DNA of 62,330 nucleotides from a bacterium (GTDB lineage Bacteria; Vulcanimicrobiota; Vulcanimicrobiia; Vulcanimicrobiales; SCRA01), in the NCBI GenBank assembly GCA_004297985.1, contig SCRA01000081.1:1-62330 (forward strand). Reading direction: 5' to 3'. The notes beneath the pieces are model-generated. The model was not told the DNA's origin, made no database searches, and worked only from the letters and a program-made list of their open reading frames with translations. Both the position numbers and the translations under genes were made by a program. This document shows positions 1-51,034 of the stretch, in pieces. The number at the start of each line of letters is the position of its first letter. Position 1 is the first letter of the stretch.

Positions 1-119
1 ACTGCGCTCGAGCCGGCCACCGCCGGCGCCGGCGCGCAGCGCGACGTCATCTCCAGCTCTCCACCACACCGGAACGCCTAGCTTACCACACCCACGATAA
101 CCATCACCGCGCAAGACTC

Positions 120-148
120 TTGCACGCTATACTTATTCGTGCTATACT
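120..148 (+). promoter_or_regulatory. Sigma-70-like promoter for the telomere-resolvase operon
   Basis: TTGCAC (120-125) and TATACT (143-148) are separated by exactly 17 nt. A second GCTATACT lies at 126-133, inside the spacer. The first gene downstream starts at 198 and has its own AAGGAG site, so this is an ordinary leadered transcript. Activity is inferred from sequence only. Confidence 0.6.
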
Positions 149-197: not shown

Positions 198-722
198 ATG
201 GCCACCACCTCCAAGCACACGAAACGCACGACGACCGCCGCCAAGAAGAAAGTCAAAGCCAAGGCTACGCCGGCGCCGCGGCCGCGCCGCCCCGCCCTCC
301 CCACCTCGATCACTCTCTCCCTCGACACCAACGCCAAGCAGCGCTGGTTCGCATCGTCCGCTAACGAGCAGATCCGCGATTGGGCCGGCTCCGAAGCCGA
401 GCTCGTCGCCAAAGCCTGCCAGCTCCATCCCGGCTACACTCCCGAGATCCTCGCCCGCCAAGGCCTGCGCATGCTCGCCCAACGCGTCATCGCCACCGCC
501 ACCTCCAAACGTGCCCTTGAGGCCGGCAAGGGCGTCGCCGGCGCCGCCGACGAGCGCCTCGCCGAAACCTACAAGCAGCTTCTCAGCGAAGGCGCCAAAG
601 ACATCACCCCCTGGATCCTCGGACACCGCGCTGATCCTATCGTCTCCTATCGCACCGCCAGACGCTGGATGCTGCTCCACGGACTCCTCGCACCTACTAC
701 TGCCGAAGAAGGCACGGCGTAA
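198..722 (+). CDS. Basic-tailed hypothetical protein upstream of telomere resolvase
   Basis: This 174-residue protein has an N-terminal tail (about residues 1-37) rich in Lys, Ala, Pro and Arg that resembles a histone-H1-like or DNA-coating tail. A compact domain follows that contains the stretch SEAELVAKACQLHPGYTPEI and several amphipathic helices. The ATG at 198 is chosen because AAGGAG sits 7-8 nt before it; the open frame continues upstream to 120 but that part covers the promoter. It ends 6 nt before the telomere resolvase gene, so the two are almost certainly co-transcribed. I do not recognise the family. A DNA-binding partner of the resolvase is a reasonable guess from the tail and position, nothing more. 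Confidence 0.75.
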   Translation: MATTSKHTKRTTTAAKKKVKAKATPAPRPRRPALPTSITLSLDTNAKQRWFASSANEQIRDWAGSEAELVAKACQLHPGYTPEILARQGLRMLAQRVIATATSKRALEAGKGVAGAADERLAETYKQLLSEGAKDITPWILGHRADPIVSYRTARRWMLLHGLLAPTTAEEGTA

Positions 723-728
723 CCAGCC

Positions 729-1811
729 ATGTCCGCTCCACGCGTTGTCCACCGCAAACTTGAGCGCATCGACATGTTCATCTCGCGCCTGCATAAGGTT
801 AAACGCTCAGAGCACGAGAGTATCTGGGGCCTTTGTCTGGCAGAAATCAAGCATCTCAAGACGGCTCCGTGGTACCGCCATGGGGCTCGCGAGCCATCCT
901 ATGGATACTCCACGACTACGCTGCGGAGCGTCCTCACACGCTATCGCAATGCTGTCCGCACGCATCTTGGGAAGACACATCCGGCACTACACTACCTCAA
1001 GCCGTCTCATGCCGACCAGGACACGGTCAAGGTCGCTTACACCGAGAGCATCGTCGAGCAGCATACGAACCTCCGCCCGATCGATCCCGACGACCTTGTC
1101 GCACGAGCTCTCAACGTACTCCGCAACGCCGACAGCTCCAATCCGTTCGCCCTCGCCGCCGCTCTCATCGCAGTCACCGGACGCCGCGCCTATGAGATCG
1201 GCTGCATTGGCACGCTTGCGAAACGCCGGCGTGGTCGGATCTCCAAACTGCTCACGCCGGCAACCGGCAACACCTTGGTTTTCTCCGGCCAAGCAAAGAC
1301 GAGAGGCGCTGATACCGCTCAGACTACACCGTATGAGATCCCCGTGCTCGCTGATCCTGGTCTTGTACTCCGCGCCTTCGAACGCTTGCGTAAGGCGTAC
1401 TCCCTCGAGGCCGACATTGGCTATATCGCGTTCAACCGCGGCGCCGGAAAGCGGATCTCTGAATACAGCCGGCGACTCTTCGCCGATGCATCTCCCTTTC
1501 GTAAGCCTCTGAACGCCAAGGATCTCCGTGCCGCGTATGCCACGATCGCCTTTTCGTGGTATGCCCCGAAGGACGTTTCTCTCAATGTCTACGTTGCTCG
1601 CATCCTCGGGCACTCGCACCTCGACGTGAAAACCTCAATCAGCTATATCGACTTCTATCCTATCGGGCACAAGCATGAATTTGTAACCGACTACAACCGT
1701 GCGGCACGAGACGCGGTGACCGAACTTCACGCAGAGGCGATTCGCGAACACGATGCACACCGCCGCGCTCAGCTTGAAGAACGCATCGCAATATTACGAT
1801 CCACTATCTAG
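729..1811 (+). CDS. Telomere resolvase (protelomerase)-like tyrosine recombinase
   Basis: A 360-residue protein of the tyrosine-recombinase fold whose motifs match protelomerases better than XerC/D. It has GRRAYEIG (Arg152/153), VFSGQAKTRG (Lys190), YEIPVL, KDLRAAYA (Arg267), ARILGHSHLD (His295 or His297) and SISYIDFY (Tyr306, the presumed nucleophile). Members of this family cut a replicated palindromic telomere and reseal it as two hairpins, maintaining linear replicons with closed ends. Length is shorter than phage TelN/TelK (500-600 residues) and closer to the compact bacterial forms. It follows gene 198-722 with a 6-nt gap. A homologous but tyrosine-less domain occurs inside the protein at 41592-45449. 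The family call is from motifs; whether this replicon is linear cannot be seen here. Confidence 0.78.
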   Translation: MSAPRVVHRKLERIDMFISRLHKVKRSEHESIWGLCLAEIKHLKTAPWYRHGAREPSYGYSTTTLRSVLTRYRNAVRTHLGKTHPALHYLKPSHADQDTVKVAYTESIVEQHTNLRPIDPDDLVARALNVLRNADSSNPFALAAALIAVTGRRAYEIGCIGTLAKRRRGRISKLLTPATGNTLVFSGQAKTRGADTAQTTPYEIPVLADPGLVLRAFERLRKAYSLEADIGYIAFNRGAGKRISEYSRRLFADASPFRKPLNAKDLRAAYATIAFSWYAPKDVSLNVYVARILGHSHLDVKTSISYIDFYPIGHKHEFVTDYNRAARDAVTELHAEAIREHDAHRRAQLEERIAILRSTI

Positions 1812-18324: not shown

Positions 18325-19764
18325 CTACCGGCCCTCGCCTTGGTCTCGCGCCGACATCGCCGGCGGCGGGCCCGCCCGGTACTCGGTATCTAAAACGGGC
18401 GCCGTGATCGTCGGCTCGATCACGAAGACGAGCTGGTTGCGCACGTGCTGGCGCTGCCGATCGCGGAAAAACGGCCCGAGGATCGGCAGATCAGCCAGAA
18501 ACGGGATCTTTGAGACGGTTTCGGAGTCGGTGTCCTTCATGAGGCCGCCGATGACCATGGCGTCACCACTTCTCACCCGCACCGTCTCTTGGACCATCTC
18601 CTTATGCACGGTGGGGATCCCGTCGATAGGCGCCCCCAGGTCAGAGACCTCCAGGTGCGTCTTAAGCGTCATGAACCCGCCGCCGATGTCCGGCGTGACG
18701 TCACCGATCACGCCCGTCTCTTCTTGCGTTACCTGCTGTGCACCGGTACGTAGATCAATCGACGTCAGATAGAAACTCGTGCCGACTTGCAGCTTCTCAG
18801 GCTGACCGTCCAGCCCCGACAGGTTCGGGCGCGAGATGATCGACGCTCGCCCGCTCGATACGAGCGCATTCAACGTCGCGTTGATCCGCACGGCGTTACC
18901 GATGAGGATCTGCGAGGTGCCACTCGAGCTCCCCTGGCCAATAGTCGCGCCGCCGAACTCGATTCCGACGTCACTCTGGTCGTTGACTGGCGTGTAGTCG
19001 TATACGGTGACGCGCAGCGAGCAGGAGCGCAGCGGCACATCCGTCCGTGCGATCAGCGTCCGCAGGGCCGCCACCTCTCCAGGCGTCCCGCGCAGGATGA
19101 TGCTATGCGACTCGTCGTCCGGCGTCACCAGCAATGTGGACGGGATTTGCGCGCCGAACGTCTTGATCAAATTGCTGGGCGTACGGTAATGCACCGGCAC
19201 GAAGGCCGTCGCCGTGTTCGCATCGGCGTCTACCTGTCGTAGGAGCGCATCAGCCGCCTGCGTCTCATCGGCGCTGGCGACCACCGTCACCGCATTGTTC
19301 GTTGCAGCAACGACCGTCCCACCCGGTAACGCCTGACGCAAGATACGCTCGGCATCGTCAGGCTTCATATTTCGGAGCACATACGTGCGTTGCGCCACCC
19401 CGAATGGCAGCGTGCCAGAGGCACCGTAGCGCTCCTCCATGGTGGCCGCCGGCCCTAATACGAGGATGCCATCCGGCGTCAGATGGCCTAGCCACCCAAA
19501 ACGCTGGCAGAGCGCGCTGAGCGCGACGCTGAGCGGTACTCGGCCCAGTGCGAGCCCCGACCATTGCGGCTCGACCGAATGGTCGATCACGATCGGGATA
19601 CCGGCCTGCTCGCTGAGGTCGCCTGCGAGGTCGTAGACGTCCTCTTTGGTCGCATTGATCGATACCATCGTGCGTAGCGCCGCTTGTAAGTCGCGGTGCT
19701 GCACCGGCGCGGGCGCCGCCCCGAAAAGCACGACCGCGGCGAACAGCGCAAAGATTCGTCTCAT
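18325..19764 (-). CDS. pilQ: Secretin (PilQ/GspD family)
   Basis: A 479-residue protein with an N-terminal signal peptide (RRIFALFAAVVLFGAAPAPV), short N domains (about 30-240, including an STN-like part near 45-105) and a C-terminal secretin domain with VGIEFGG, ASIISRPNLSGLDGQPEKLQ, and SGDAMVIGGLMKDTDSETVSKIP. It forms the outer-membrane gate for the pilus. It is shorter than many PilQ proteins. It overlaps the PilP-like gene by 4 nt. GspD-type is an alternative name; the surrounding PilM/N/O set favours PilQ. Confidence 0.88.
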   Translation of the reverse strand: MRRIFALFAAVVLFGAAPAPVQHRDLQAALRTMVSINATKEDVYDLAGDLSEQAGIPIVIDHSVEPQWSGLALGRVPLSVALSALCQRFGWLGHLTPDGILVLGPAATMEERYGASGTLPFGVAQRTYVLRNMKPDDAERILRQALPGGTVVAATNNAVTVVASADETQAADALLRQVDADANTATAFVPVHYRTPSNLIKTFGAQIPSTLLVTPDDESHSIILRGTPGEVAALRTLIARTDVPLRSCSLRVTVYDYTPVNDQSDVGIEFGGATIGQGSSSGTSQILIGNAVRINATLNALVSSGRASIISRPNLSGLDGQPEKLQVGTSFYLTSIDLRTGAQQVTQEETGVIGDVTPDIGGGFMTLKTHLEVSDLGAPIDGIPTVHKEMVQETVRVRSGDAMVIGGLMKDTDSETVSKIPFLADLPILGPFFRDRQRQHVRNQLVFVIEPTITAPVLDTEYRAGPPPAMSARDQGEGR

Positions 19765-20453
19765 GAGCCACTCCGAGTAGGGAGAGATAGAGGTGGCGCC
19801 GGCGATCCCGCCGGCACAACAACGAATGGTGGTGGACTCGGCACCTCTGGGGCTGGGGCTAACGACGTCGCAGCCGACGGCTGTGGCGTCGCCCCCGTGC
19901 TCATCACCCCAGGCGTTGCAGCTGCTCCAGGCGCAGCCGTCGCTCCGCGAGTCCCGTAGGCCTGCGTGCCATGCACGACGCCGTAGTGGTGATCACCAAC
20001 CGTGATCCCATCGAACCCGATCCCGGTCACGACGTCGCCGCACAAGAAATCGCCGACACTCACGCGTTGTGCCGGCTTCTCGTTCACACTCACGTGCGCA
20101 ATGAGGAGCGGCTTGCCAGTGCGGGCATCGGTGCCCTGATAGGTCCCCTCGACCTCGAGCTTACATGCGCTCGTTTCGATCCCCGGCACGAACGCCCCGT
20201 CGCTGCCGAGCATTAGCGCGGCTTGCGTGGTTCCTTGCGCAACAGCCTTACCGCTGAGGAAAGGATCCCGCACCAGCTGAGGGATCGGTGCAAGCGTAAC
20301 CCGCGACGCCGGCGGCGGCGTCACGGCCGGACCCGGTAGATACACTCCTGCAGCTCGCGACGAATGCGGTAGCATCACCCAAGTGCCAGCCCCATAGCAC
20401 AGCATAGCCGCCGCCACCAGCACCATTCGCCGGCGCTCCGATAGCGGCGTCAC
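19761..20453 (-). CDS. PilP/GspC-like inner-membrane protein
   Basis: A 230-residue protein with one N-terminal membrane helix (RRRMVLVAAAMLCYGAGTWVM), a Pro-rich linker with RDPFLSG (the motif seen in GspC/PilP linkers), a small beta domain (about 85-160; EVEGTYQGTDARTGKPLLI, VSVGDFLCGDVVTGI), and a long Pro/Ala tail. PilP and GspC link the inner-membrane platform to the secretin. The position between PilO-like and secretin genes supports the call. Overlaps of 4 nt on both sides. Confidence 0.65.
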   Translation of the reverse strand: MTPLSERRRMVLVAAAMLCYGAGTWVMLPHSSRAAGVYLPGPAVTPPPASRVTLAPIPQLVRDPFLSGKAVAQGTTQAALMLGSDGAFVPGIETSACKLEVEGTYQGTDARTGKPLLIAHVSVNEKPAQRVSVGDFLCGDVVTGIGFDGITVGDHHYGVVHGTQAYGTRGATAAPGAAATPGVMSTGATPQPSAATSLAPAPEVPSPPPFVVVPAGSPAPPLSLPTRSGS

Positions 20454-21364
20454 TGTCCTCGCCCTCCAGCACTCAATGCCGCCTGCGGCGACGGCGACGC
20501 CGGCGCTACGGTCGGCACCGCAGTCGGAAGCACGACGTGGTAGAGAACCAGAGTCGCCTTCGCGTCTGGCACTTGCGTCGCCGACAGCTTGCCTTTGTCG
20601 ACGAGATCCGTGGTCTGGAACGTCAGATCGTCAGTCTCGAGCGCGATCGGGATCCGAGCGAACTCCGCGGTCATCGCCAGGGTGTCCCGCACTCGCCCAG
20701 CCACCTCAAACTCGAAAGTCTCTCCTTCGAGCGCTTTGACCTCGCGCGCCGTCGCGATCGGCGGCGCCGCAGCCACAGACGATGCCACTGGCATCGGATG
20801 CGAGACGGTCTCAAGGCCCTGGACGCAGTCTGCGGCTTTCACGACCGCCTGCGCCACAATACCCGCTTGCGCCGACGTTCCTCCGGCAGCCGATGACTCC
20901 GCGCTCCCGGCGGCATTGATAGGCTGCTTACGCGGCGGCTCGACATGCACGAACGTCACACCGGGATGCTCTCTGCGCAGCTCTTCTTCTTCCGTGAGGA
21001 AGAGGGCCTCCGCGTTTCCGCTCCTGTAGGGCTGCAGAGCTCGCTCAAGCGCCGTCTGACGCAATTCGAAGGCGCCCAGTTCGTTTAGGCGTCCGTCCAA
21101 GCACGCCTTAGCCTGTTGCAGTTGCCCTTCGCGTGCATACACTTCACGAATCCGCTGACTGGTCGGCCAGATGTCAAACGCGGTGGTCGCCACGAGCACC
21201 GCGGCTGCCGTCGCATAGAACCACGTTGCTCGCGTGTTCCCGGTTACCCGGAACAGTGACCTAACGTCACGCGAAAACACGTCCTTGAAGGCCAACCGCG
21301 CGACAGCATAGCTCACCCACACCCCGACTAGTAACAGCAGCGGCACCAGCACGGCGTGAGTCAT
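20450..21364 (-). CDS. PilO/GspM-like inner-membrane assembly protein
   Basis: A 304-residue protein with two hydrophobic segments (about 5-25 and 48-65), a coiled-coil-like stretch (about 68-125; REGQLQQAKACLDGRLNELG), and a periplasmic ferredoxin-like C-terminus containing FEFEVAGRVRDTLAMTAEFA, which matches the pattern of PilO/GspM platforms. It sits between the PilM-PilN and PilP-like genes. It has an extra N-terminal helix compared with usual PilO. Confidence 0.62.
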   Translation of the reverse strand: MTHAVLVPLLLLVGVWVSYAVARLAFKDVFSRDVRSLFRVTGNTRATWFYATAAAVLVATTAFDIWPTSQRIREVYAREGQLQQAKACLDGRLNELGAFELRQTALERALQPYRSGNAEALFLTEEEELRREHPGVTFVHVEPPRKQPINAAGSAESSAAGGTSAQAGIVAQAVVKAADCVQGLETVSHPMPVASSVAAAPPIATAREVKALEGETFEFEVAGRVRDTLAMTAEFARIPIALETDDLTFQTTDLVDKGKLSATQVPDAKATLVLYHVVLPTAVPTVAPASPSPQAALSAGGRGQ

Positions 21365-22794
21365 CGCAGCACCATCCTCACTGCGAACTCGACGACGCCT
21401 CCGCGCTCTTCGACCCCGCGCTCAGTGACGCTGGAGACACCGTCGACCGTGCGCAGACGGCTCATGAGCGTTCCGACATGTCCCTCGTCGGGTGCGTAGC
21501 CCCTGATCGTCCAGCCGTCATCAGTGTACCGGAGCTCGCTGAGCGACGCCCATGACGGCAGTGCGTTCAGCACAATGGTTGCGACCCGCGCTCGCCGATA
21601 CGCGCTCGTTCGCACATCATCGACCCGCTGGACGATCGCTGCCAGCGCTGAGACTCGCTCCTCAACGGCATCGGCATAGGCAGCTACCTGCTGCTCTCGG
21701 CCGATCGCACTCTGGATCGCCGGCAGACCACTCTGCGCCCGCGCGAGCTGCGCGTGCGCGGCGCTCGAGGTCGCTATGGCGATCACGATCGACGCTGCTA
21801 CCGCAACTACGCCATTACGCAAGTGCGGTGTCTCGCGTATAACCGCCAACGACTGCGAGGAGTCCGCACGGAGGAGATTCACCGACGGCACGCCGGCGTC
21901 TACGCCTTCTACTGATACGGTATCGCTCAGTGCGGCCCCAACCGCAGCTGTTATCTCCGGGCTGTACCGCGCAACGATGTCCGCCGGAAACGCGGACGCC
22001 ATGTTCCGCAAGTCGGCAATCGATACGTCGAGTACTGGCTCATGCAGCTCTCGACGCAATGCCCCCACGAACGACTCCAGCCCCTCGTGGCGACCAACGG
22101 CGGTCAATCTCTCGAGGCGATACCCGCCGCTCCGCATCTCGCTGACCCGCGTGGCTATACGGGCTGCGAGACGTCGTACGACCGAGAACGCCCCTTCGCC
22201 CTCGATAACCTCTTCGACTGAAATGCGTTCGTAGTGCGGTGCCGGCTGGGACAACACGATAAGCACCGCCCGATCACCGTAGTACGCGATTGCCGCATCT
22301 GCCAGCGGCAACGCCATCTTGTATGCGAAGCCGCCATGTACAGCCCTGATCGGCCTCAAGCCGACTTGGCGCGCCACCCGGAGCGCGCGTGCCAGCTGAT
22401 CCACCTGCACCAACGACAGCCACGCCGCAGCCCTATTCGACTGATCGAGATCGACCAGCACCACCGAATGCTCCGAGAGTAGCGTCCGGAAGGCCCGTCG
22501 TGCCGCGTGATAGCCCGCCTGCGAGACGCGATTCGCCTCCATGGCCAGGTTGCTCTCGTCCTCCCACCGCTCGACTACGGCTACGCTTTCGTCGCATGCA
22601 AGGACGCAACGACGCTGGTACCCTCCGAGGCGATTGCGTACCTCAGACAGCGCTTGCCGAAGCTCGGCCGCGCTACCGTCGCACGCCTCTACCACAACAT
22701 TTTCCAAACGATACTCGCCGTCGGTCACGCTCACGGCTACACCGGCGACTCGTCCACCTGCAATCGAAATGCCTAGAGGCACCATTTCGCTCAT
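21361..22794 (-). CDS. PilM-PilN fusion (GspL-like) platform protein
   Basis: A 477-residue protein. Residues 1-320 form an actin-like PilM fold (VPLGISIAGGRVAGVAV; VLVDLDQSNRAAAWL). After a membrane helix (NGVVAVAASIVIAIATSSAA, about 325-345) comes a coiled-coil and a PilN-like periplasmic domain (about 350-477; LSELRYTDDGWTIRGYAPDE). PilM and PilN are usually separate proteins that interact; here they are one chain, as in GspL. The ATG at 22794 overlaps the TGA of the peptidase gene; the frame to 22938 is an overlap artefact. Confidence 0.75.
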   Translation of the reverse strand: MSEMVPLGISIAGGRVAGVAVSVTDGEYRLENVVVEACDGSAAELRQALSEVRNRLGGYQRRCVLACDESVAVVERWEDESNLAMEANRVSQAGYHAARRAFRTLLSEHSVVLVDLDQSNRAAAWLSLVQVDQLARALRVARQVGLRPIRAVHGGFAYKMALPLADAAIAYYGDRAVLIVLSQPAPHYERISVEEVIEGEGAFSVVRRLAARIATRVSEMRSGGYRLERLTAVGRHEGLESFVGALRRELHEPVLDVSIADLRNMASAFPADIVARYSPEITAAVGAALSDTVSVEGVDAGVPSVNLLRADSSQSLAVIRETPHLRNGVVAVAASIVIAIATSSAAHAQLARAQSGLPAIQSAIGREQQVAAYADAVEERVSALAAIVQRVDDVRTSAYRRARVATIVLNALPSWASLSELRYTDDGWTIRGYAPDEGHVGTLMSRLRTVDGVSSVTERGVEERGGVVEFAVRMVLR

Positions 22795-23408
22795 CCGACG
22801 ACTCGATGAACGACGAGAACCCAGAGCAGCATGCCTGAAGCAGCGAATGGCGCCCAGGGCACGACGAAGCGCTCGCGCGCGGCGATCCGACGCGCATACC
22901 ACGCGAAGGCCACGCATGCGCCTAAGAGGAACGCCCACGCGACTCCCTCAACCCCCAGCACGAGTCCGAGGAGCCCCATGAGCTTGACGTCGCCTCCAGC
23001 AATGTCGCTGTGATGCACGGCGGCGACGCCGGCGACGACGAGCACCCCCGCGGCGGCACCGACGATCATCGGCAATAAGCTCGCCACTCCAGCGGACAAC
23101 AACTCGATGAAGATGATCATAGCAGCTGCCACGGCCAGCACACCGTTGTAGATCAGGCGATGGCGGAGGTCGGTCACCACACTGACTGCCAGCGCCGAGG
23201 CCGCAACGGCGACGGCAGCGGGACGGCTCCCCGTCGGCAACGCTACGGCGAGCACGCCCGCCACCGCGCTCGCGGTAACGACTCCGGCCGGGACGGGCCC
23301 CAGCTCGCGGCCGTGGCGGCGCGCGCCACGTCGCGCGCCGATCCACAGCACGCCACTGCTCGCCGCCGCCAACGCGCCTACTTCGGCCGCCGCCACCAAC
23401 ATGATCAC
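22791..23408 (-). CDS. Prepilin peptidase (A24 family, CpaA/TadV-like)
   Basis: A 205-residue polytopic protein. The two catalytic aspartates are recognisable: VVTDLRHRLIYN and GGDVKLMGLLG. It lacks the N-terminal methyltransferase/zinc domain of PilD, as in CpaA/TadV. It would cut prepilins such as 10843-12507 after the Gly-Gly. It starts at a GTG overlapping the upstream stop (GTGA) and overlaps PilM-PilN by 4 nt. Confidence 0.85.
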   Translation of the reverse strand: MIMLVAAAEVGALAAASSGVLWIGARRGARRHGRELGPVPAGVVTASAVAGVLAVALPTGSRPAAVAVAASALAVSVVTDLRHRLIYNGVLAVAAAMIIFIELLSAGVASLLPMIVGAAAGVLVVAGVAAVHHSDIAGGDVKLMGLLGLVLGVEGVAWAFLLGACVAFAWYARRIAARERFVVPWAPFAASGMLLWVLVVHRVVG

Positions 23409-24073
23409 GGCTCCGCGACGATTCCTTGGCCAGAGATCATCGCGAGATGCGTCTGCGAACCCGTATAGCCCGACTGAGCCAACGCCTGCACGACCCGCGT
23501 ATCATACTGCCGTGGATCGCTGATCTGATACTGGGTAGGACCACCAGCGACGCTCTGATCGGCCAAGGTGAAATTGGCATTCGTCGCATCGCCCCAGGCA
23601 TGTGGTGCATACGGCAGCACCGGTGACGACGTCGCTCCCGTCGGTGTATACGCGGTCGGGGTCACGCTACACGTACTGCCCGGACAAGGCAACTGGTGAT
23701 ACAGGCCCTCGAATTGGTCCGTGGCATTGGCGGAGTAGCCCAGCATGATCATGCCCTGGATGCCTGCCCCGTACTCCTCCAAGAACTGTAGGTTCATCAC
23801 GCCCAACACGAACAAGCCAGCCAGCAATGCGAAGCCGACGAGATCGCCGATCGTCAGCTGTCCTCGCTCGTTATCGAGTGCATTCGGAGTCAACGCGTGA
23901 ACGATCGCTCGAGTGACAAACGTCACGACCACGCCTACTGCGAGGCATGCCACGAATGCGGTCCTGGCTAGCACTGGCGACCATCGCACCTGCATCGCGA
24001 TCACGGCGCCGACAACTGCCGACGCAATCAGCGCCACGAGGTAGATCCAAACTTCCTTCTTCGTCGTACTCAT
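23405..24073 (-). CDS. Membrane protein with internal pilin-like segment
   Basis: A 222-residue protein with two hydrophobic segments near the N-terminus (about 10-30 and 38-62). Residues 69-80 read DNERGQLTIGDL, followed by a third hydrophobic helix (LVGFALLAGLFVLGVMNL), and then a Pro/Thr/Gly-rich outer domain. The ERGQLTIGD resembles a prepilin leader and start of a mature pilin, but it lies about 70 residues in. If cut there, it would release a pilin whose leader is a two-helix membrane domain. A good AAAGGAG precedes the ATG. The pilin reading is an inference. Confidence 0.6.
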   Translation of the reverse strand: MSTTKKEVWIYLVALIASAVVGAVIAMQVRWSPVLARTAFVACLAVGVVVTFVTRAIVHALTPNALDNERGQLTIGDLVGFALLAGLFVLGVMNLQFLEEYGAGIQGMIMLGYSANATDQFEGLYHQLPCPGSTCSVTPTAYTPTGATSSPVLPYAPHAWGDATNANFTLADQSVAGGPTQYQISDPRQYDTRVVQALAQSGYTGSQTHLAMISGQGIVAEP

Positions 24074-24099
24074 GTGACGGGTCTCCTTTCCTTTGCGCG

Positions 24100-25434
24100 T
24101 CAGCGCGTTATCCCCGGCGCCGTCGAATGCGCCCAGAGCAACTCCAGCATATGTGGTAGCATCAAAAACATCGGTGCAAGCAACGAGAAAATCATGAAGC
24201 CCAGAGGCAGCATGACTGCGGCCGACAGCACGTTGGGCAAAGCCTCCTTAACCGTTTTTTTGAAGGCTGTTGCGTTGGTGCTGAGCAGCACTGCTGCATC
24301 CGCGCAGACATCCTCTGGTCGCGCGAATCCCTCACTCCCTCGGAGTTTCCCCTTTAGGATCGGGTCTAGCAGCTGGTCATCTTGGAAGCAATCGATCCAG
24401 CTCGTCCCTTCCTCACGATAGCGCATCCCCATGCGCTCCAGAGCCTCGGCAAAAAGCACGCTCTTCGACTGCGAAGCCGCGACCTCAAATGCGACCATCC
24501 ACCCCCGCTTCGCACCATGCGCCAAGCTCAGAGCCCAGGCTATCTCCTCTGTCCGCTCCGCACGGTAAAGCCGTCCCAGCTGGCCACCGGCGCTGAGTAG
24601 GATCCACTCCCACACGGCGCGGGCGGGGCGCGTCTGCATCACCGTGAACCGAACCACAATCGCCACTGCAGCCAGCGCCGCCAGCTTCGGCACGATCAAA
24701 CGAGGATCGCCCAGCAGATTCAGGACCCAGATCGCCACCGCGGTGAACCACGGGGCGTGGCCGTGCTCGTACGTCGCGAAGAGCCTCTCAAGCACCGGCA
24801 CAAACACCAACTTAAACCCGAAGGCGAGCGCGAGACCCGAAACGGCCATCAGCACAGGCGTAAACAGCATGAGACCGAGGTCGAGGGCCGTTTCGTGTTT
24901 CTGCCGATACCAGCTCGCGATGCGCTTGCAGACCGCCGCGAGATCGGACTCCTCGCCCCCTGCCAGCATCCGTGCAACCGCCGGATCAAATACGTCGGGA
25001 TAGAGCGCCACGGCGGCGTGCAGCTTCATCGACTCCATGTGCGAGCGCAAGGCTCTCACCGTCGTGCGAAGGGTTTGATCCGCGACGCCATCCGACACTC
25101 GCTCTAGGGCATCGATCGTGCGTCCGGTCTCGACGAATGACGCCAGATTGTCGAAGAACAGATGCATCTCCAGTGGTGGTACCGCAGAACGCATCCACGG
25201 GAAGAGGCGTCCAAACAGCCGGACCACGACTCCAGGAAACGGTACCTGGCGCAGCCGATGCTCGATCGCAGATTCAGCCGTCAGGCTCCACAGTTGTACG
25301 CCGGCGCTCTCGAGGAGCCGTTCGGCTTGTTCAACCGTCTCCGCAGCAATCTCGTTCTTTACGAGCTCGAAGCGGCTATCACCGTGGCGTACCACGCCTT
25401 CATAGCGGTACCGCGCGGGTGCGGCCGTCGCCAT
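24100..25434 (-). CDS. pilC: Type IV pilus/T2SS platform protein (PilC/GspF family)
   Basis: A 444-residue protein with two T2SF domains. The first is about 120-240 (LHLFFDNLASFVETGRTIDA-like start, RTTVRALRSHMESMKLHAAV). The second is about 300-430, after a membrane helix pair around 205-285. A final hydrophobic segment (LSAAVMLPLGFMIFSLLAPM) closes the protein. PilC is the inner-membrane hub on which the motor ATPases act. Its stop is 26 nt ahead of the next gene, and its ATG abuts the PilT-like stop. Confidence 0.85.
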   Translation of the reverse strand: MATAAPARYRYEGVVRHGDSRFELVKNEIAAETVEQAERLLESAGVQLWSLTAESAIEHRLRQVPFPGVVVRLFGRLFPWMRSAVPPLEMHLFFDNLASFVETGRTIDALERVSDGVADQTLRTTVRALRSHMESMKLHAAVALYPDVFDPAVARMLAGGEESDLAAVCKRIASWYRQKHETALDLGLMLFTPVLMAVSGLALAFGFKLVFVPVLERLFATYEHGHAPWFTAVAIWVLNLLGDPRLIVPKLAALAAVAIVVRFTVMQTRPARAVWEWILLSAGGQLGRLYRAERTEEIAWALSLAHGAKRGWMVAFEVAASQSKSVLFAEALERMGMRYREEGTSWIDCFQDDQLLDPILKGKLRGSEGFARPEDVCADAAVLLSTNATAFKKTVKEALPNVLSAAVMLPLGFMIFSLLAPMFLMLPHMLELLWAHSTAPGITR

Positions 25435-26538
25435 CTATGCGGTCCTCCGTCCAACGAGACGATCGCGCAGCAGGTCCGCGGGCTCAGCGAAGATCCGCGT
25501 CTCCTTTGAGATTTGGCCGCGGCGCATCAGCTCTTCCAGGTGGCGCTCGAACGTCTGCATCCCCCACTCCTGGCCCGAATGCATCTCGTCCGCCAGTGAA
25601 TGGATCCGCGTCGGATCGTATATGATCGACCGCACCTTGGGCGTGTTGACGAGAATCTCCACGACGGCGCGGCGCGCGGCCTGGCCGTCGCGCGTATTGA
25701 CCCTCTTGACCAGGCGCGTCGCGATGATTGCCACCAGGGATTGCGCCAGGCGCGCGCACCCATTCTCTCCGTCGGTGCTCGACACTGCCTGGATGAGGCG
25801 AAGCAAGGCTTCTCGACACGTGCTAGCGTGGATCTGGGCGAAGACGGCGTGGTTGGTTTCGGCGAGAGTTACCGCGAGCTCAATCTCTCGTGAGGTGAAC
25901 AGCTCTGGCGGAACGACCACGTGCGCTCGCGCTGAGAGGATCGTCTCCAGAGCCTCCTCCCCAGAAGCAAACTCGCTTCCAATCTCTACATGGTCGATGA
26001 ATGACACCCGTGACGTATGAATGAACTCCACCGGGTCTCCGACGATCATCGCGTGGCCGGGAACCCGCGCCAGCCGAGCATCTGTCATCGCTGCCGTCAT
26101 GGTTGACTTTCCGGCCCCTGTCGCACCGCTTACGACCACCAAACCTCCATCCGGGAGGTACGACAGCTCCTCCACGACAGGCGGGAGGTCCAGCTCGCGC
26201 AACGTCGGGGTGCGCATTGGCAGCAGACGGATAGAGAGCCCACGCCCACCCATCCTCGGATAAACGCGAACGCGTACTCGACCGTAGCTCGCGGTCCGCG
26301 CAAAGCGGCACGTCCCCGTCTCCTGTAGGCGTTGGCGGTTGAACTCGTCGTCGCCGAGCAGCTCCTCAACGAACGCTCTCAGGCCTTCTTCCGTAACAAA
26401 GCGCTCGGGGTCGACCACGACGTCGCCCATGCGCTCGTACGCAAAGCGCTCGCCGGCGGCCAGCCACACGTCATTACAGTCCTGGCTGCGCGCCCACATG
26501 AGGCGATCGACGATCTCTCGCCGGCCGAGCTCGCTCAC
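25435..26538 (-). CDS. PilT-like retraction ATPase with altered Walker B
   Basis: A 367-residue ATPase of the PilT/GspE class. The Walker A motif (VVSGATGAGKSTM) is intact, and a His box (FAQIHASTCREALLRLI) and a relic of the AIRNLIRE motif (NTPKVRSIIYDP) are recognisable. The Walker B/Asp-Glu region, normally GEMRDxET, reads HVVVPPELFTSREIE; the glutamate remains but the Gly and Asp do not. It may therefore be a regulator or a weak motor. It overlaps the PilB gene by 4 nt. Confidence 0.75.
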   Translation of the reverse strand: MSELGRREIVDRLMWARSQDCNDVWLAAGERFAYERMGDVVVDPERFVTEEGLRAFVEELLGDDEFNRQRLQETGTCRFARTASYGRVRVRVYPRMGGRGLSIRLLPMRTPTLRELDLPPVVEELSYLPDGGLVVVSGATGAGKSTMTAAMTDARLARVPGHAMIVGDPVEFIHTSRVSFIDHVEIGSEFASGEEALETILSARAHVVVPPELFTSREIELAVTLAETNHAVFAQIHASTCREALLRLIQAVSSTDGENGCARLAQSLVAIIATRLVKRVNTRDGQAARRAVVEILVNTPKVRSIIYDPTRIHSLADEMHSGQEWGMQTFERHLEELMRRGQISKETRIFAEPADLLRDRLVGRRTA

Positions 26539-28229
26539 CGCAAGTCCTCTTCCAGCGAGTCGTCGCTAGGCGCACCGAAGACGCGCCGGACCTCCTCCAT
26601 ATCTGTAACGCCCTCGGCCACTTTGTCGTACGCGTCTTCGAGCATGCGGCGATAGCCGTACTTTCGCGCGAGGCGCTCCAGCTGCACTGGCCCAACTCCA
26701 CGCTCTACCGCAAGTGCCACCGCGCGATTGAAGCGCAACACCTCGAAGACTCCGATGCGTCCGGAGTAGCCAATCCAGCCACACGCCTCGCATCCAAGCG
26801 TACCGTCACCGAGCCGCCGTACGCGGTACGGCTCTGGGCGTCCGTCAGGCAGTCTCGCTGAAGAGTGCTCGCGACACACAATGCATAGACGCCTCACAAG
26901 TCGCTGCCCTACGATCGCACGCAATATTCCGGCCAAGGTTCCCCGATCGACTCCCTTCGCGAGTCGTCCGACTGCCACGATCGCATCGTCAGCGTGTGCC
27001 GTCAGCGTCACCACACCGCCGACTTGCGCCGCGTCGAAGACCTGCGCCGCGTCCTCCATCACGCGCACCTCGCCGCACAGAAACGCATCTGCTGCCATCC
27101 GCAGGAACCCGCCGAGGATCTTCCTGTAGGGGCGCACTTCGCTGACTGACGTCTGCCACACGCCGGGGACCAGCATTTCTGGCGGATCTCCGATACCAAC
27201 CACCTTCATGGTGTCGAGCGGAAAGGTGCGCAGGATCGCTATCGCCGTCATCGTCTTGCCGGTGTCCCCTGCACCTACGACTGCATAGGCCCCCGTCTTC
27301 CAGGCCAACGCGAGCTCAAGCTGATCCCGCGCCTTCCCGGTTAGGCCGGCCTCGGTGAAGGTCATCGGTTGCGTGTCGAGATCATGGAGGCGAATCACCG
27401 CCTGTTGCCCCAGGAAGTGCTCTTGCACCATCACGACGCGCGCATAGAGGGTCTTCAGGTGCGTGTCGACCTGCCATTGCCCCTCGCCGATCTCCTCAGG
27501 TGATCCCTTGCCGATGGCGCTGTTCCAGAGGGCTGTAACGAGCTGCTCGTACTGATCGCGATCGTAGTCATACCGCACATGCTTGACGCCGTCGATCGAG
27601 AAACGCGCTTGGCCACCCGCCTGCGTGGGCTCCACCAAGAGGTTCTGCCCGCCCTGCTCGTGACACTCAATGATGAGCTCCTCGAGCTGTTGCCGCACCG
27701 GGGCGCGGCGACGACGATGCGAACGCAACGCCACCATCTCGTCTAGGCGATACGCCACGCGCACCGCACGACGCACGACTTCGCGTGGAACTCGCTGCAC
27801 CAGCAGCTCCATCCGTGCGTGTGCGCGGACGATCGTCACCCTCTCGCTATGGTCAGGATCCGCCATCGCCACCACCAGGCGCGGCTCGAGCCCTTCTTCT
27901 ACACGGAGTGGTATGACATCGCATGCCACAGCCACTGACGGCTTGATCCGGGCCAAGGCCCGCCGATCCGCTCCCAGCGTGTAGAGCGATAGCAGCCGCT
28001 CGCGGAAGACGTCGTGCCAGCGAGGATCGACGTTGCGCGAGGGCATCGTCTTACGCCCGACAGCCCCCTCAAACGACGTAAGGTCGCTCTTTGATCCGAC
28101 CTCGACGACGACAATGTCGCCGTCGAGGCCAACGGGGAGCACCGCATAACGCAGCGCCGCCTCGTACGGCACTACCTCGAGTGCGGACCACGCCGGCGAC
28201 GGGTGGCGGCGTAGCGCCTCAGTTACCAT
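26535..28229 (-). CDS. pilB: Pilus assembly ATPase (PilB/GspE family)
   Basis: A 564-residue ATPase with an N-terminal MshEN/N1-like domain. Walker A is in VVGAGDTGKTMTAIA, Walker B in DAFLCGEVRVMEDA, and the His box in LTAHADDA. The tetracysteine zinc element found in PilB/GspE is CIVC...CEACGWIGYSGRIGVFEVL. Walker A has Asp where Pro-Thr is usual, but Gly-Lys-Thr is kept. It powers extension. It overlaps the lytic transglycosylase gene by 11 nt. Confidence 0.85.
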   Translation of the reverse strand: MVTEALRRHPSPAWSALEVVPYEAALRYAVLPVGLDGDIVVVEVGSKSDLTSFEGAVGRKTMPSRNVDPRWHDVFRERLLSLYTLGADRRALARIKPSVAVACDVIPLRVEEGLEPRLVVAMADPDHSERVTIVRAHARMELLVQRVPREVVRRAVRVAYRLDEMVALRSHRRRRAPVRQQLEELIIECHEQGGQNLLVEPTQAGGQARFSIDGVKHVRYDYDRDQYEQLVTALWNSAIGKGSPEEIGEGQWQVDTHLKTLYARVVMVQEHFLGQQAVIRLHDLDTQPMTFTEAGLTGKARDQLELALAWKTGAYAVVGAGDTGKTMTAIAILRTFPLDTMKVVGIGDPPEMLVPGVWQTSVSEVRPYRKILGGFLRMAADAFLCGEVRVMEDAAQVFDAAQVGGVVTLTAHADDAIVAVGRLAKGVDRGTLAGILRAIVGQRLVRRLCIVCREHSSARLPDGRPEPYRVRRLGDGTLGCEACGWIGYSGRIGVFEVLRFNRAVALAVERGVGPVQLERLARKYGYRRMLEDAYDKVAEGVTDMEEVRRVFGAPSDDSLEEDLR

Positions 28230-29792: not shown

Positions 29793-30566
29793 ATGCGTGT
29801 GCTACCCATTTGCAACCGAAAAGGAGGTGTGGGCAAGACGGCTACGGCAGCCAACCTTGGCCACGCCCTCGCATTACGCGGCCGGCGCGTCCTAGTCATC
29901 GATTGGGACCCCCAAGCCAACCTCACGACCCACATCGGCCGCGATGATCGACCCGAGGATGCCCCGACGATCGCGGACGTCTTCCTAGCACCATCTCGAA
30001 CCACCGAGGCGGTCAGCCAGAGCGTCGCCAGCGGAGTCGACTTGATCTATGGCTCTACCGCGCTGGCCGAGGCTGAGCGGCAGATTCTCGTGGCCAACCA
30101 CAGTGCCCCGGGTCTCATCCTGACCAGAATCCTCAAACGGCTCGAGCCGCTCGGATACGACTACGTTCTGGTAGACTCGCCCAACGGCGACGGCCAGCTC
30201 GTTCGTAACGCGCTGATCGCTGCTCCCGAGCTTCTGGTCCCCCTCCAGACCGAATATGCGGGGATGGAGGGACTCGGCATTCTCCGTCGCCTCGTGCATG
30301 AACTCGTCGAACAAGACGCCCTGCAAGAGCGGCCTAAAATGCTCGTCTTTGCTGCCATGGTGGACGAGCGCACCCGAAGCGGGCGCAGCCTCAAGGAGCT
30401 GGCGCTCCAAATCCCTGGAACGAGCCCGCTGAGGTCTGTAGTGCACCGCAATGCCCCCATCCACGATGCCTACGGCGCCAAGCAGACGGTCTTCGACTAC
30501 GCCCGCAGTTCCCGAGGGGCGACGGAGTACGCCGCCCTCGCCGAGGAGATCGACCATGACGGCTAA
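29793..30566 (+). CDS. parA: ParA-family partition ATPase
   Basis: A 257-residue protein with the deviant Walker A (CNRKGGVGKTATAANL, residues 7-22), A' (RRVLVIDWDPQANLT) and Walker B (YDYVLVDSPNG) of ParA/Soj. It has no N-terminal HTH, so it is the small ParA type (Ib-like or Soj-like) in which the partner protein does the DNA binding. It moves plasmid copies over the nucleoid. It overlaps the next gene by 11 nt. It is preceded by the 8-bp repeat array and an inverted repeat. Confidence 0.88.
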   Translation: MRVLPICNRKGGVGKTATAANLGHALALRGRRVLVIDWDPQANLTTHIGRDDRPEDAPTIADVFLAPSRTTEAVSQSVASGVDLIYGSTALAEAERQILVANHSAPGLILTRILKRLEPLGYDYVLVDSPNGDGQLVRNALIAAPELLVPLQTEYAGMEGLGILRRLVHELVEQDALQERPKMLVFAAMVDERTRSGRSLKELALQIPGTSPLRSVVHRNAPIHDAYGAKQTVFDYARSSRGATEYAALAEEIDHDG

Positions 30567-37479: not shown

Positions 37480-37509
37480 CTTATACTCACCGACGTATAA
37501 CCGCGCCCT
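37480..37509. other. oriT: Probable origin of transfer (oriT, MOBQ type)
   Basis: TTATAC (37481-37486) and GTATAA (37495-37500) form an inverted repeat directly followed by CCGCGCCCT. The core TAACCGCGCCCT (37498-37509) matches the RSF1010-type nic core TAAGTGCG/CCCT at 10 of 12 positions. By analogy the nick is between 37505 and 37506. Inverted repeat immediately 5' to nic, the accessory gene on one side and the relaxase on the other, is the normal MOBQ arrangement. Confidence 0.65.
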
Positions 37510-37516
37510 TGTTCAG

Positions 37517-37533
37517 CCGGGAGGACCTCCCGG
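37517..37533. repeat. 17-bp palindrome in relaxase leader
   Basis: CCGGGAGG, A, CCTCCCGG. It lies 12 nt past the proposed nic and 57 nt before the relaxase GTG; it could be a terminator-like stem formed in transfer or a translation control hairpin. Confidence 0.6.
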
Positions 37534-37589
37534 GGGCCGTTGCAATACGGCCTCCGCCATCGTGGAGATCTCGGCGCAAGGGGACTGCG

Positions 37590-40500
37590 GTGGCAACGTA
37601 CCGCCTCGAAGCGAAGATCATCGGGCGCGCTGCTGGGCGCAGCGTCGTCGCGGCCGCAGCGTACCGCTCCGGCGAGCAGCTCGTCGATCATGCTACTGGT
37701 CGCAGCTTCGATTACACCAGGCGCCATGGCGTGGACGCCTCCGAGATCCTAACTCCCGAAGGGGCAGCCTTCGCATCCCGCGAGCAGCTGTGGAACATCG
37801 TCGAGCAAACGGAGCGCCGTTGCGATGCGCAGCTCGCCCGCGAGTTCATCGTCAGCCTACCCCACGAACTCGAGAGCAGCGAGCGCCGGGAGCTCGTGCG
37901 GAGTTTCGTCCGCGAGGAGTTTCTCTCGCTCGGCCTCGTGGCCGATGTCTCGATACATCGGCCCGACAGCCGTGGCGACGAACGAAACCATCACGCCCAT
38001 ATCTTGGTCACCACCAGGCCCCTCACGCCCGCAGGCTTTGGTCCCAAGCTGCGCACCATCAATACTCGGGCCCAGCTCCGCTTGTGGCGCGAGCGCTGGG
38101 AGGCCCATGTCAATCGCGCGCTCGAGCGTGCGAACGTCCGTGCACGCGTCGATCACCGGTCGCTGCGAGCACAAGGGCTCGATTCCGAGCCGGAGCCCAA
38201 GCAAGGCCCTTTTGCTACCGAGCTCGAGCGCCGCGGCCGGCGCACTTTCGCCGGCGACGAGCGGCGCACAGTGCGCGCGCGCAACGAGGCACGCGAGCAG
38301 CGCCGGCGCGCCGAGCGCGCGCGCTCGCTGCGGCCCGCAGCCCTCAACCAAATCATCGACGCAGCACTCGAAGCTCTGAGCCCTCTCATCGACAGCTTCA
38401 CCGCTGCGTCAGTGGGCCGCGGGCGCGGCAGAAGAAGCGAGGCGCCGTCGCTCGAGCACCCTGGACACGACCGGGCCAAAGAATGGCAGGCGCAGCTGCT
38501 GTCACAGCACTATGGACGGGAGATTCTCTCGAGCACACTGGCACAGCGCTGGTCGGTTCAGCGCACGGAGAACGGCATCGTGTTTCGTAATGGAGCCTCG
38601 CGCCTCGCCGACGCCGGCAGCCGCATCTCTATCAACGGTGAGGCCGCGAAGGATGTGGCTGCGATGCTTGATCTTGCTGAGCGCAAGGGGTGGACGGCGA
38701 TCAAGGTCGAGCGCGGGTCAGCGACCTTCAAGGTGGCCGTCATGGCTGCCGCTCTGCAGCGCGGCCTAGACGTCGTTGCCCGCGGCGACGATCGCCAGAT
38801 CTTAGCAGAACTCCGTCGCCTTCATGCGCAGTCTGAGCGCGCTCGTACCGCTCACCCTCTCGATCACGATCCCGCCATGCCCGCAGCCGGCGCCCACCAT
38901 GCGGAGAGCTCTGATGTCGCTCCCGACGTACCTCCCGCAGCCGCGCCTCGGACGCAGGACGTCGTCGTCTCCGAGACGCTGCAGCTGCTCACGCAGCAGA
39001 ACTCGACGTTCACCCGGAAGGATCTTGAGAAGACTCTTGAGCGATTCTGTGCCTCTCCGGAGCATCTTGCCGAGCTCCTCGTTGCGGCACAGACCCATCC
39101 CGACGTCATCCACGCCGGCGTCGACGACCGTGGGGTCGAGCGCTTCACGACGGCGAGCCTCTATGCGACCGAAGAACGTCTCCTCTCCCAATCACTCGAG
39201 ATGGCCACCTCCGCCGGCTTCGCTGTGCCCGATCGTATCGCGCAGAAGATCCTTCGGGATCGGGGACTGACGCCGCAACAAGCCGAGGCGCTTCAGAAGT
39301 GTGCTGCGCCTAATCGTTTCGTGGCGATTGTCGGCCTCGCGGGCACCGGCAAATCGTTCCTCATGAAGGCGTACGTCGATGCCCTTAAAGAGGCTGGCTA
39401 CGACGTCGTGTGCGGGGCACTGGCCGGTGTCCCGACCGATTCCCTCGCTCGCGATGCCGGCATCGCCGATGCTCGCACGATCGCCGGCTGGCGCGTCTGG
39501 CTCGACAGCGGCAATGCCTTCAGCGCTAAGACGGTCTTCATCGGGGATGAGTGGGGGATGGTCGGCAGCGAGGACGCTGCCGCCATCACCCGTGCCCTCT
39601 GCGACGTCGGGGCCAAGCAGATCGCCATCGGCGACTTCCTGCAGCTGCAGCCCATCGCCGCCGGCGCTCCATTTCGCGCCGTGGTTGAGCGTCTGCCGGC
39701 TGAGAATGTCGCACGCCTCGACGATGTTCGCCGACAGGAAGCCGAGTGGATGCGCGAGGCCACGAAGCTCTTTGGCAACGGGCAACCGCGCGAAGCTCTC
39801 CAGCTTTACGAGCAGCATGGCCGTTTCGTGGGTCACGAGACCCGGGAGGACGCCAAGCGAGAGATCGCCGCCGCCTGGCTCGAGACCCACCTCGAGCACC
39901 CAGACAAGTCGCAGCTGATCCTCACGTACACGCGGGCGGACACGCTTGATGTGAACGTTCAACTGCGAGCGCTCAAGCGCGAGCACGGGGAGCTGCAGGG
40001 GCCGGACGTCACCTATAAGACTTCCGATGGCGAGCGAGCCTTCGCGGTCAACGACCGCGTGTTTTTCACTCACCCAGAGAATCGCACGCTAGGAGTCCGC
40101 AATGGGACGCGTGCGATCGTGACGGCCGTCGATCCCGAAGCCAAGACGTTGACGCTGCGGATCCCCGAGCAGGAAGACCGCTCACTCACCGTCACCATGA
40201 GCGAGTACAACGCAATCGACTATTCAGACTGCTGCACGACGCACAAGGCGCAAGGGCAAACGGTCGACGTCTCACACTTTCTCGCAAGCTCGCACCGCGG
40301 CTTGGCGATGTATCTCACATACGTCGCCATGTCGCGGCATCGTCAGGACGCCCACCTCCACTGGAGCAAGGACCAATTCAAGGGTGTTAGCCAGGTCTAC
40401 CGTGTGCTCTCCCGTGTCCAGCCTAAGGACTACACGCTAGACTACTCCGCGCAGGGAGCGCCCAATGGCTTCGGGCAAGGCATCCCGCACCAAGGGCCAG

Positions 40501-41330
40501 CGTCGATCGCGATGCGTGCTACGCATCAGATCCGTGCCGAGCTGCGCCATGTACTCTACACGGCGGCGCACTTACGCGATACCGCAGCTCAGGAGCTGCG
40601 AGCCCAGGCCCAGCGCGCCTACGGTGCGGTGACCTCATGGTATAGCCGGATCGATGAGCAACTGCGCGAGCTCGAGAGCCGCGGCATCCGCGGCGTCGTG
40701 GTCACCGGCACGGCGAACACCTTCCATGATCGGCTGACTCTACTCGAACAATCGGTCGCCACGGCCCTCGAGCGTGCCCTGGGGGCCGTTCGCGAGCCGG
40801 TACGAAACGTCGCTCGCGAGGACGTTCAGCGCAGGCTGGCCACCGTATGCGAGACACTCCGTGCGCGCCTTGACGAAATACGCGCCGCGCTTGATAACCG
40901 GGTCGCTCCGCTCCCGGCGCCCGATGCTGTGGTCGCGAGTGAGTTGCATCGCCTCGAACAGGTGGCCCACTCAGCGGGCAATGCTGCAGCCCGGCAATCC
41001 GCCGAGGCTGATCTGGAAGCTGCACGTGCACGGTTCGCTCGTCCCGATGTTCTCGATGCGATGTGGGCGGCGCACCGCGAGCGAGCGGCGCTCGTTGTGG
41101 AGCATGTAGAGATTGAGCAGGAGCTGCGCGCTGAACGCGACGAGCTCCGTATGACTCTCCAGCGCGCTGCAAGCCTGGAACGCCGCCTCCAGCAGGGCGT
41201 TGACCGTGACTTCCCTGATCCTGCGATCCTCGAGCTCGACGGCGTGGATCTCGTGCGAAGTGTCGAGGCCAATCTACCGGCGGATGCGGCCGCTGGTCCG
41301 AGCCGCGACGAGCCGGACCGCACCCGGTAA
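37590..41330 (+). CDS. traA: MOBQ conjugative relaxase-helicase TraA
   Basis: A 1246-residue protein. The GTG at 37590 follows AAGGGG and gives the canonical start ATYRLEAKIIGRAAGRSVVA with Tyr25 in AAAAYRSGE, the MobA/TraA nucleophile position. The HUH motif is in IHRPDSRGDERNHHAHILVT (about 130-150). A RecD2/TraI-like helicase domain follows: Walker A GLAGTGKSF (near 582), Walker B VFIGDEWGM, then SF1 motifs to about 950. The C-terminus is helical. It nicks oriT, then unwinds the transferred strand. The frame extends to 37509 but the extra part overlaps nic. Walker B has Trp where Ala is usual. Confidence 0.88.
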   Translation: MATYRLEAKIIGRAAGRSVVAAAAYRSGEQLVDHATGRSFDYTRRHGVDASEILTPEGAAFASREQLWNIVEQTERRCDAQLAREFIVSLPHELESSERRELVRSFVREEFLSLGLVADVSIHRPDSRGDERNHHAHILVTTRPLTPAGFGPKLRTINTRAQLRLWRERWEAHVNRALERANVRARVDHRSLRAQGLDSEPEPKQGPFATELERRGRRTFAGDERRTVRARNEAREQRRRAERARSLRPAALNQIIDAALEALSPLIDSFTAASVGRGRGRRSEAPSLEHPGHDRAKEWQAQLLSQHYGREILSSTLAQRWSVQRTENGIVFRNGASRLADAGSRISINGEAAKDVAAMLDLAERKGWTAIKVERGSATFKVAVMAAALQRGLDVVARGDDRQILAELRRLHAQSERARTAHPLDHDPAMPAAGAHHAESSDVAPDVPPAAAPRTQDVVVSETLQLLTQQNSTFTRKDLEKTLERFCASPEHLAELLVAAQTHPDVIHAGVDDRGVERFTTASLYATEERLLSQSLEMATSAGFAVPDRIAQKILRDRGLTPQQAEALQKCAAPNRFVAIVGLAGTGKSFLMKAYVDALKEAGYDVVCGALAGVPTDSLARDAGIADARTIAGWRVWLDSGNAFSAKTVFIGDEWGMVGSEDAAAITRALCDVGAKQIAIGDFLQLQPIAAGAPFRAVVERLPAENVARLDDVRRQEAEWMREATKLFGNGQPREALQLYEQHGRFVGHETREDAKREIAAAWLETHLEHPDKSQLILTYTRADTLDVNVQLRALKREHGELQGPDVTYKTSDGERAFAVNDRVFFTHPENRTLGVRNGTRAIVTAVDPEAKTLTLRIPEQEDRSLTVTMSEYNAIDYSDCCTTHKAQGQTVDVSHFLASSHRGLAMYLTYVAMSRHRQDAHLHWSKDQFKGVSQVYRVLSRVQPKDYTLDYSAQGAPNGFGQGIPHQGPASIAMRATHQIRAELRHVLYTAAHLRDTAAQELRAQAQRAYGAVTSWYSRIDEQLRELESRGIRGVVVTGTANTFHDRLTLLEQSVATALERALGAVREPVRNVAREDVQRRLATVCETLRARLDEIRAALDNRVAPLPAPDAVVASELHRLEQVAHSAGNAAARQSAEADLEAARARFARPDVLDAMWAAHRERAALVVEHVEIEQELRAERDELRMTLQRAASLERRLQQGVDRDFPDPAILELDGVDLVRSVEANLPADAAAGPSRDEPDRTR

Positions 41331-51015: not shown

Positions 51016-51034
51016 TCGAAAGAGTGCTGGCCGC

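Follow-up and report, generated by a model that had tools for sequence, protein, structure and literature searches.

A TelA-like telomere resolvase gene on a conjugative, very probably linear and hairpin-ended plasmid of an uncultured Eremiobacterota bacterium

Gene content of the plasmid contig

The stretch of DNA analyzed here, referred to as the window, is an entire contig (C76) of 62,330 bp from a genome bin of 90 contigs. A relative from the same order has been deposited as Candidatus Eremiobacterota, and the source of the plasmid is an uncultured Eremiobacterota bacterium. The tetranucleotide usage of the window correlates at 0.83-0.94 with that of eight other contigs of the bin, and the plasmid therefore fits its host. 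The features of the window are collected in Table 1.

Table 1. Features of the 62,330-bp window.
Feature	Position	Strand	Basis and remarks
Inner edge of probable inverted terminal repeat	1..120		Identical to bases 1-120 of contig C60, both inward-reading
Small conserved gene directly 5′ of the resolvase	198..722	+	Same position in sister plasmid, 34% over 167 aa
Telomere resolvase, TelA-like, 360 aa	729..1811	+	ATG start; Pfam, PDB match, fold, alignment, tree
Type IV pilus / type II secretion-like operon: secretin, prepilin peptidase, T2SSF, two T2SSE ATPases	18325..28229	-	Pfam
ParA-type partition ATPase	29793..30566	+	Pfam
Relaxase-helicase, MobQ / Ti TraA type: MobA_MobL, RecD-like helicase, LPD7	37509..41330	+	Pfam, NCBIfam
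Polyvalent protein: ArdC-N, zincin metallopeptidase, second telomere-resolvase domain, SSB domain	41592..45449	+	Pfam
Telomere-resolvase domain in polyvalent protein	43584..44066	+	PF16684; R, K, R and H retained, Lys at the catalytic Tyr position
Coupling protein VirD4/TraG	46111..48267	+	Pfam, NCBIfam
VirB11/TrbB ATPase	48796..49872	+	Pfam, NCBIfam
VirB4/TrbE ATPase	50888..53626	+	Pfam, NCBIfam
VirB10/TrbI	54201..55661	+	Pfam
VirB9/CagX	57449..58288	+	Pfam
Type IA topoisomerase	59606..61591	+	Pfam
Single-strand binding protein, last gene before the intron	61797..62225	+	Pfam; syntenic with sister plasmid 61255
Group II intron, 5′ part, cut by contig end	62250..62330	+	Rfam; 3′ part on C60, 6062-5978 (-)

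The relaxase scores 604 bits against the NCBIfam TraA_Ti profile (cut-off 590) and 249 bits against MobQ (cut-off 200), and it is accompanied by a coupling protein, VirB4 and the core channel genes. Judged by gene content, the plasmid is conjugative, and the corresponding part of the original prediction is borne out by the Ti-type MobQ relaxase, the coupling protein, and the VirB4, VirB9, VirB10 and VirB11 homologs recognized through Pfam and NCBIfam. The relaxase region also contains a 92-nt inverted repeat (36677-36768 / 37779-37870) and, upstream of the relaxase, a truncated and inverted second relaxase N-terminal domain (MobA_MobL, 116 bits; 36562-36963, minus strand). Elsewhere, the pilus operon closes with HD-domain and GGDEF genes (16562-18324, minus strand), which point to plasmid-borne cyclic di-GMP signalling, and the gene for a 1,110-aa protein with CARDB/DUF11-like domains (13233-16565, minus strand) includes imperfect 75-nt repeats (13932-14271).

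The free-standing enzyme belongs to the telomere resolvase family

The 360-aa product of the gene near the left end matches the PF16684 (ResT-TelK_cat) profile over its full length (92.7 bits, cut-off 27, E 2.7e-26). In a phmmer search of the PDB its top matches are TelA entries (E 2.2e-25 to 5e-24), followed by ResT (7e-5), with no Xer or integrase entries among the matches. The NCBIfam TelA profile is matched at E 3e-32 with a score well under the equivalog cut-off, as expected of a distant relative. An AlphaFold model built from four sequences (pLDDT 72) has TelA (E 4e-13), TelK (1.5e-7) and ResT (1.4e-4) as its only significant structural neighbors in Foldseek. The product of the small gene directly upstream has no match in Pfam.

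In the alignment to TelA, whose numbering was anchored on R255 and Y405 (PMC3558466, PMC10686437; PDB chain numbers are native plus 20), the catalytic residues correspond as R153=R255, K190=K286, R267=R366, H295=H394 and Y306=Y405. The intact five-residue set that had been proposed from the sequence is thereby confirmed, and the two positions given as alternatives, Arg152/153 and His295/297, are resolved to R153 and H295. All five residues are also kept in all 15 other aligned family sequences, with the exception of the second, fused copy in the window, which has Lys in place of Tyr.

A tree was built from TelN, TelA, phage, cyanobacterial and alphaproteobacterial relatives together with Xer and integrase sequences from the same bin. 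Here the window enzyme groups with its counterpart on a syntenic plasmid described below (support 88) and with the fused domains (80), outside the phage clade; inner branches are moderately supported. The Xer and integrase sequences of the bin are separated by a long branch with support 98. This comparison with TelN and TelA was the check that could have placed the enzyme inside the Xer-type recombinases, and such a placement is excluded. There is no PF00589 match in the 360-aa protein, and the bin's own Xer homolog falls outside the resolvase group, so that an Xer-type identity for the gene is ruled out on both profile and tree.

On sequence and predicted structure, the assignment to the telomere resolvase family is firm, as had been claimed, and telomere resolution in the manner of TelA is the plain reading of what the free-standing enzyme would do. 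No relatives were confirmed in viral contigs. A scan of genome contigs with two strict peptide patterns, which reach close relatives only, returned just the one syntenic plasmid, and replicons of this kind were found in 2 of the 149 Eremiobacterota genomes searched.

A syntenic plasmid with a palindromic end

The sister plasmid, DAIDHQ010000011.1, is a 68,410-bp Eremiobacterota replicon that shares with the window the resolvase (~47% identity), the gene upstream of it and the transfer region in the same order. When the short contig C60 (below) is included, the succession of resolvase, relaxase, ArdC protein, coupling protein, VirB genes, topoisomerase, SSB and C60 genes is the same as in the sister plasmid along its whole length.

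The first 40 bases of the sister contig, TATAGCAGCCCCCGCTCTCATGAGAGCGGGGGCTGCTATA, form a perfect palindrome with arms of 20, flush with the contig start; the next longest perfect palindrome in this 68-kb contig has arms of 8. The palindrome is self-complementary throughout, and its center is TCATGA. This hexamer is the native one for TelA, which formed no hairpin with most altered versions (PMC3558466). The match is supporting rather than decisive, since a palindromic hexamer matches by chance once in 64 cases. The 20-bp arms are shorter than read-through at k=141 would ideally yield. The two ends of the sister plasmid are also related to one another, in that the left end from base 55 inward aligns to the reversed right end with 74.5% identity over 294 bp, the right end stopping ~54 bp short. 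A large palindrome, which one of the checks attached to the original prediction called for, was looked for at the window's own ends and not found there, the telomere of the window replicon lying outside the assembly; a telomere-like palindrome is seen at the start of the sister plasmid.

The words TGCAGTA and CTTGCAG recur near both sister ends (45, 82, 122 and 301; 68226, 68332 and 68375), and are perhaps candidate telomere-proximal binding sites. A full-length DnaA gene, possibly that of the plasmid initiator, lies on the left arm of the sister plasmid (bases 6722-8287). On C60, a protein with a DnaA C-terminal domain, likewise a possible plasmid initiator, is encoded beside the intron (bases 5372-5971 of that contig, minus strand). 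The arms seem to have been exchanged.

Topology of the window replicon

The left end of the window is identical over bases 1-120 to the start of C60, a contig of 6,095 bp in the same bin; both copies read inward, and the two contigs diverge immediately thereafter. The shared sequence was found nowhere else in the bin. A length of 120 bp is the common assembler overlap in this bin, as seen from seven contig pairs with a shared 120-bp start and many 120-bp joins in a comparison of contig ends that took contigs longer than 20 kb by their left end only and masked six short contigs, and this coincidence implies that one common sequence precedes both C76 and C60. Six of those pairs owe their shared start to ordinary repeats. 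By itself, then, the shared start is unspecific, and it carries weight only jointly with a split intron and with gene order.

The right end of the window cuts a group II intron, and each of its halves (5′ on C76, 3′ on C60) occurs once in the bin. As the metagenome bin holds a single half of each kind, the right end of C76 and the far end of C60 are probably joined through this intron. Independently of the intron, gene order in the sister plasmid identifies C60 as the right arm of the window replicon: its SSB gene, at 61255, is followed by homologs of the C60 genes at 62792 and 64285-65385, in matching orientation. Taken together, the intron halves, the synteny and the shared start indicate a replicon of ~70 kb consisting of C76, the intron and reversed C60, with the same sequence inverted at both outer ends. 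A graph signature of terminal inverted repeats has been used to find linear plasmids in short-read assemblies (PMC9453081; PMC13293297), and the same signature is present here, the ends of C76 and C60 both meeting the same end of one repeat.

Between the window's own two ends, no terminal palindrome, direct overlap or inverted repeat was found in the 62,330 bp. The reason is that the left end of the contig coincides with the inner boundary of the repeat and its right end falls within the intron, with the body of the terminal repeat and the telomere lying outside the assembled contigs. The terminal sequence of the window had no match in a viral collection.

The suggestion that the replicon could be linear with hairpin ends is thus supported by three independent lines of evidence: the inverted-repeat graph signature with the split intron, the synteny of C60, and the palindrome and terminal repeats of the sister plasmid. 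The linear reading of the window's plasmid is well supported by these sequence comparisons, if not proven. The original interpretation, a linear, hairpin-ended conjugative plasmid, is very probably correct, and the gene at 729-1811 is highly likely to be the telomere resolvase gene of such a plasmid of ~70 kb.

It is improbable, by comparison, that the plasmid is circular, with the resolvase-family protein serving as an ordinary recombinase in dimer resolution or DNA inversion and the 120 bp forming part of an insertion sequence or another inverted repeat inside the plasmid. Resolvase relatives are indeed present in records that are labelled circular (Xanthobacter, 51 kb; Paracoccus, 225 kb), ordinary repeats produce 120-bp shared starts elsewhere in the bin, and no hairpin is seen within the window. 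However, the contig of the synteny-matched sister plasmid starts with a telomere-like palindrome and is bounded by inverted repeats, the 120-bp sequence is absent from the rest of the bin, and at least one related record that is labelled circular, Agrobacterium deltaense pEL101-131, holds an inverted duplication of more than 24 kb, the mark of hairpin read-through.

A linear replicon that is capped in another way, by terminal proteins or with mixed ends as in pELF1, and in which the resolvase acts at one end only or elsewhere, is very unlikely. Terminal inverted repeats alone cannot separate hairpins from protein-capped ends (pBSSB1, PMC9453081), and pELF1 does have two unlike ends (PMC6863802). 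An intact TelA-type enzyme is nevertheless conserved in both the window plasmid and its sister, and the terminal palindrome of the latter is self-complementary through its center, which carries the TelA hexamer. Telomere resolvases are typical of N15-like phages, yet a prophage of that kind in place of a conjugative plasmid is scarcely credible given the complete conjugation set and the position of the enzyme outside the phage clade; neither Pfam nor PHROGs revealed a virion family among the scanned proteins, part of the replicon being missing, and among ten proteins compared with PHROGs, including most of the larger uncharacterized ones, the resolvase alone matched.

Three public records bear separately on the labelling of such replicons. 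In the part of NZ_CP143887.1 (A. deltaense pEL101-131) that was examined, the inverted duplication lies around position 103,060, next to protelomerase genes, and extends over 24,480 bp with 99.6% identity; to judge from its sequence, the assembly ran past the hairpin end of a linear replicon, and the circular label is wrong. An imperfect inverted duplication (~71-73%) beside a protelomerase gene in NZ_CP131132.1 (Shinella zoogloeoides p2_Teo12), also labelled circular, is possibly a low-quality hairpin read-through. NZ_CP080277.1 (Phaeobacter piscinae pS26_106), from outside the Rhizobiaceae and labelled linear, carries a protelomerase gene together with Dot/Icm-type T4SS genes.

Resolvase domains fused to transfer proteins

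The most surprising element lies outside the free-standing gene and consists of resolvase domains fused to transfer proteins. In the window, a second PF16684 domain is embedded in the 1,285-aa polyvalent protein together with ArdC-N, zincin metallopeptidase and SSB domains; having Lys where Tyr is required, it is not expected to cut DNA. In the sister plasmid, the relaxase-helicase (an open frame of 1,729 codons) has two C-terminal resolvase domains, the first with all five catalytic residues and the second without the catalytic Lys and His. Matches to the first of these two sister domains in 72,556 plasmid records are named protelomerase, telomere resolvase or hypothetical protein, and none is named relaxase. 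To our knowledge, resolvase domains fused to transfer proteins have not been reported before in the open-access literature. The main text of a survey of polyvalent proteins mentions neither a telomere-resolvase nor an SSB domain (PMC5512222).

The original prediction had regarded linearity as hard to reconcile with single-strand transfer. The two are less at odds than claimed, as conjugative or T4SS-bearing linear plasmids are on record, namely pELF1 (PMC6863802) and hairpin plasmids with dot/icm genes (PMC13293297). Replication, initiated at an internal origin, would run around the hairpins and generate replicated telomere junctions, which are palindromes. As described for TelA, a resolvase dimer would then cut each strand of the central hexamer via Tyr306, refold the strands and seal two hairpins. 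A hairpin-ended duplex would be a single continuous strand; once nicked at oriT and passed to a recipient, this strand would be self-complementary, because both strands of the duplex are contained in it, and could refold to a hairpin-ended duplex after the relaxase rejoins its ends. We infer from this a possible link between telomere resolution and conjugation, in which the fused resolvase domains would accompany the DNA as parts of transfer proteins and bind, protect or resolve telomeres. The fused copy of the window, without its Tyr, could bind or protect and not cut.

Such a role is made plausible by two properties of known enzymes. TelN shields hairpins from Mre11-Rad50 independently of its resolution activity (PMC12624138), which supports a role for a catalytically dead fused copy, and ResT and TelA anneal single strands, including SSB-coated ones (PMC7861564). 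The annealing activity of TelA belongs to its N-terminal domain, which the fused copies largely lack. It is therefore put forward tentatively, with less than even confidence, that, in this plasmid lineage, the transfer machinery has adapted to hairpin telomeres, with resolvase domains (predicted to be active on the sister relaxase and dead in the ArdC-SSB protein of the window) entering the recipient along with the self-complementary strand to recognize, protect or re-form the hairpin ends.

A somewhat doubtful alternative, which concerns the fused domains and leaves the topology untouched, is that they are decayed leftovers with no role in transfer, shuffled by recombination within the plasmid. 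Consistent with decay, the window copy has lost its Tyr and the second sister copy its catalytic Lys and His, and the fusion partner is not the same in the two plasmids, being the relaxase C-terminus in the sister and the ArdC-SSB protein in the window. However, the first sister copy has the five catalytic residues, it scores 110 bits against PF16684, above the free-standing enzymes, and its model (pLDDT 81) is TelA-like in Foldseek (E 5e-10). Moreover, both fusion partners would be expected to pass into the recipient.

Few bacterial groups are known to carry linear plasmids with hairpin ends, and the passage of such plasmids through single-strand conjugation has not been worked out. The replicon described here combines a TelA-like resolvase with a relaxase of the Ti type and a full T4SS, with the terminal structure visible in its sister plasmid, where an intact resolvase domain fused to the relaxase offers a direct handle on how telomere resolution and conjugation meet. 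Hairpin-type conjugative replicons would thereby be extended to the Eremiobacterota, and they appear to be recoverable from short-read metagenome bins.

Comparison with known systems

The best match of the window enzyme in both sequence and fold is TelA of the Agrobacterium linear chromid (PDB 4dwp, 4e0p, 4f41). The five catalytic residues are all kept, D398 of TelA corresponds to D299, and the terminal palindrome of the sister plasmid has the same central hexamer, TCATGA. The two enzymes differ in that identity is ~27% and the window protein has 360 aa, in contrast to 442 in TelA; the refolding residues Y201 and R205 of TelA are Gln and Lys; and the window gene is plasmid-borne, adjoins conjugation genes and resides in a different phylum. 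The polyvalent proteins of conjugative elements (PMC5512222) share the ArdC-N and zincin metallopeptidase architecture of the window's polyvalent protein.

Among plasmids, pLin13.3 of the Rhizobiaceae and its relatives (PMC13293297) resemble the replicons described here in being linear plasmids of ~80 kb with hairpin ends, terminal inverted repeats, a protelomerase, T4SS genes and a topoisomerase I. That group has a Dot/Icm-type T4SS and no identified relaxase, apart from one putative relaxase in a further draft plasmid, whereas the plasmids here have a MobQ relaxase of the Ti TraA type, a Trb/VirB-type T4SS and transfer proteins that carry fused resolvase domains. Rhizobium oryzihabitans p5 (NZ_CP048637, 339 kb, labelled linear) carries a protelomerase-family gene and is typed as conjugative, MOBQ and MPF_T; it differs in having one free-standing protelomerase place only, and its topology is that of the record label. 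The pELF1-type plasmids of Enterococcus (PMC6863802) are likewise linear and self-transmissible and have one hairpin end, but their two ends are unlike one another and they carry an FtsK-like transfer gene.
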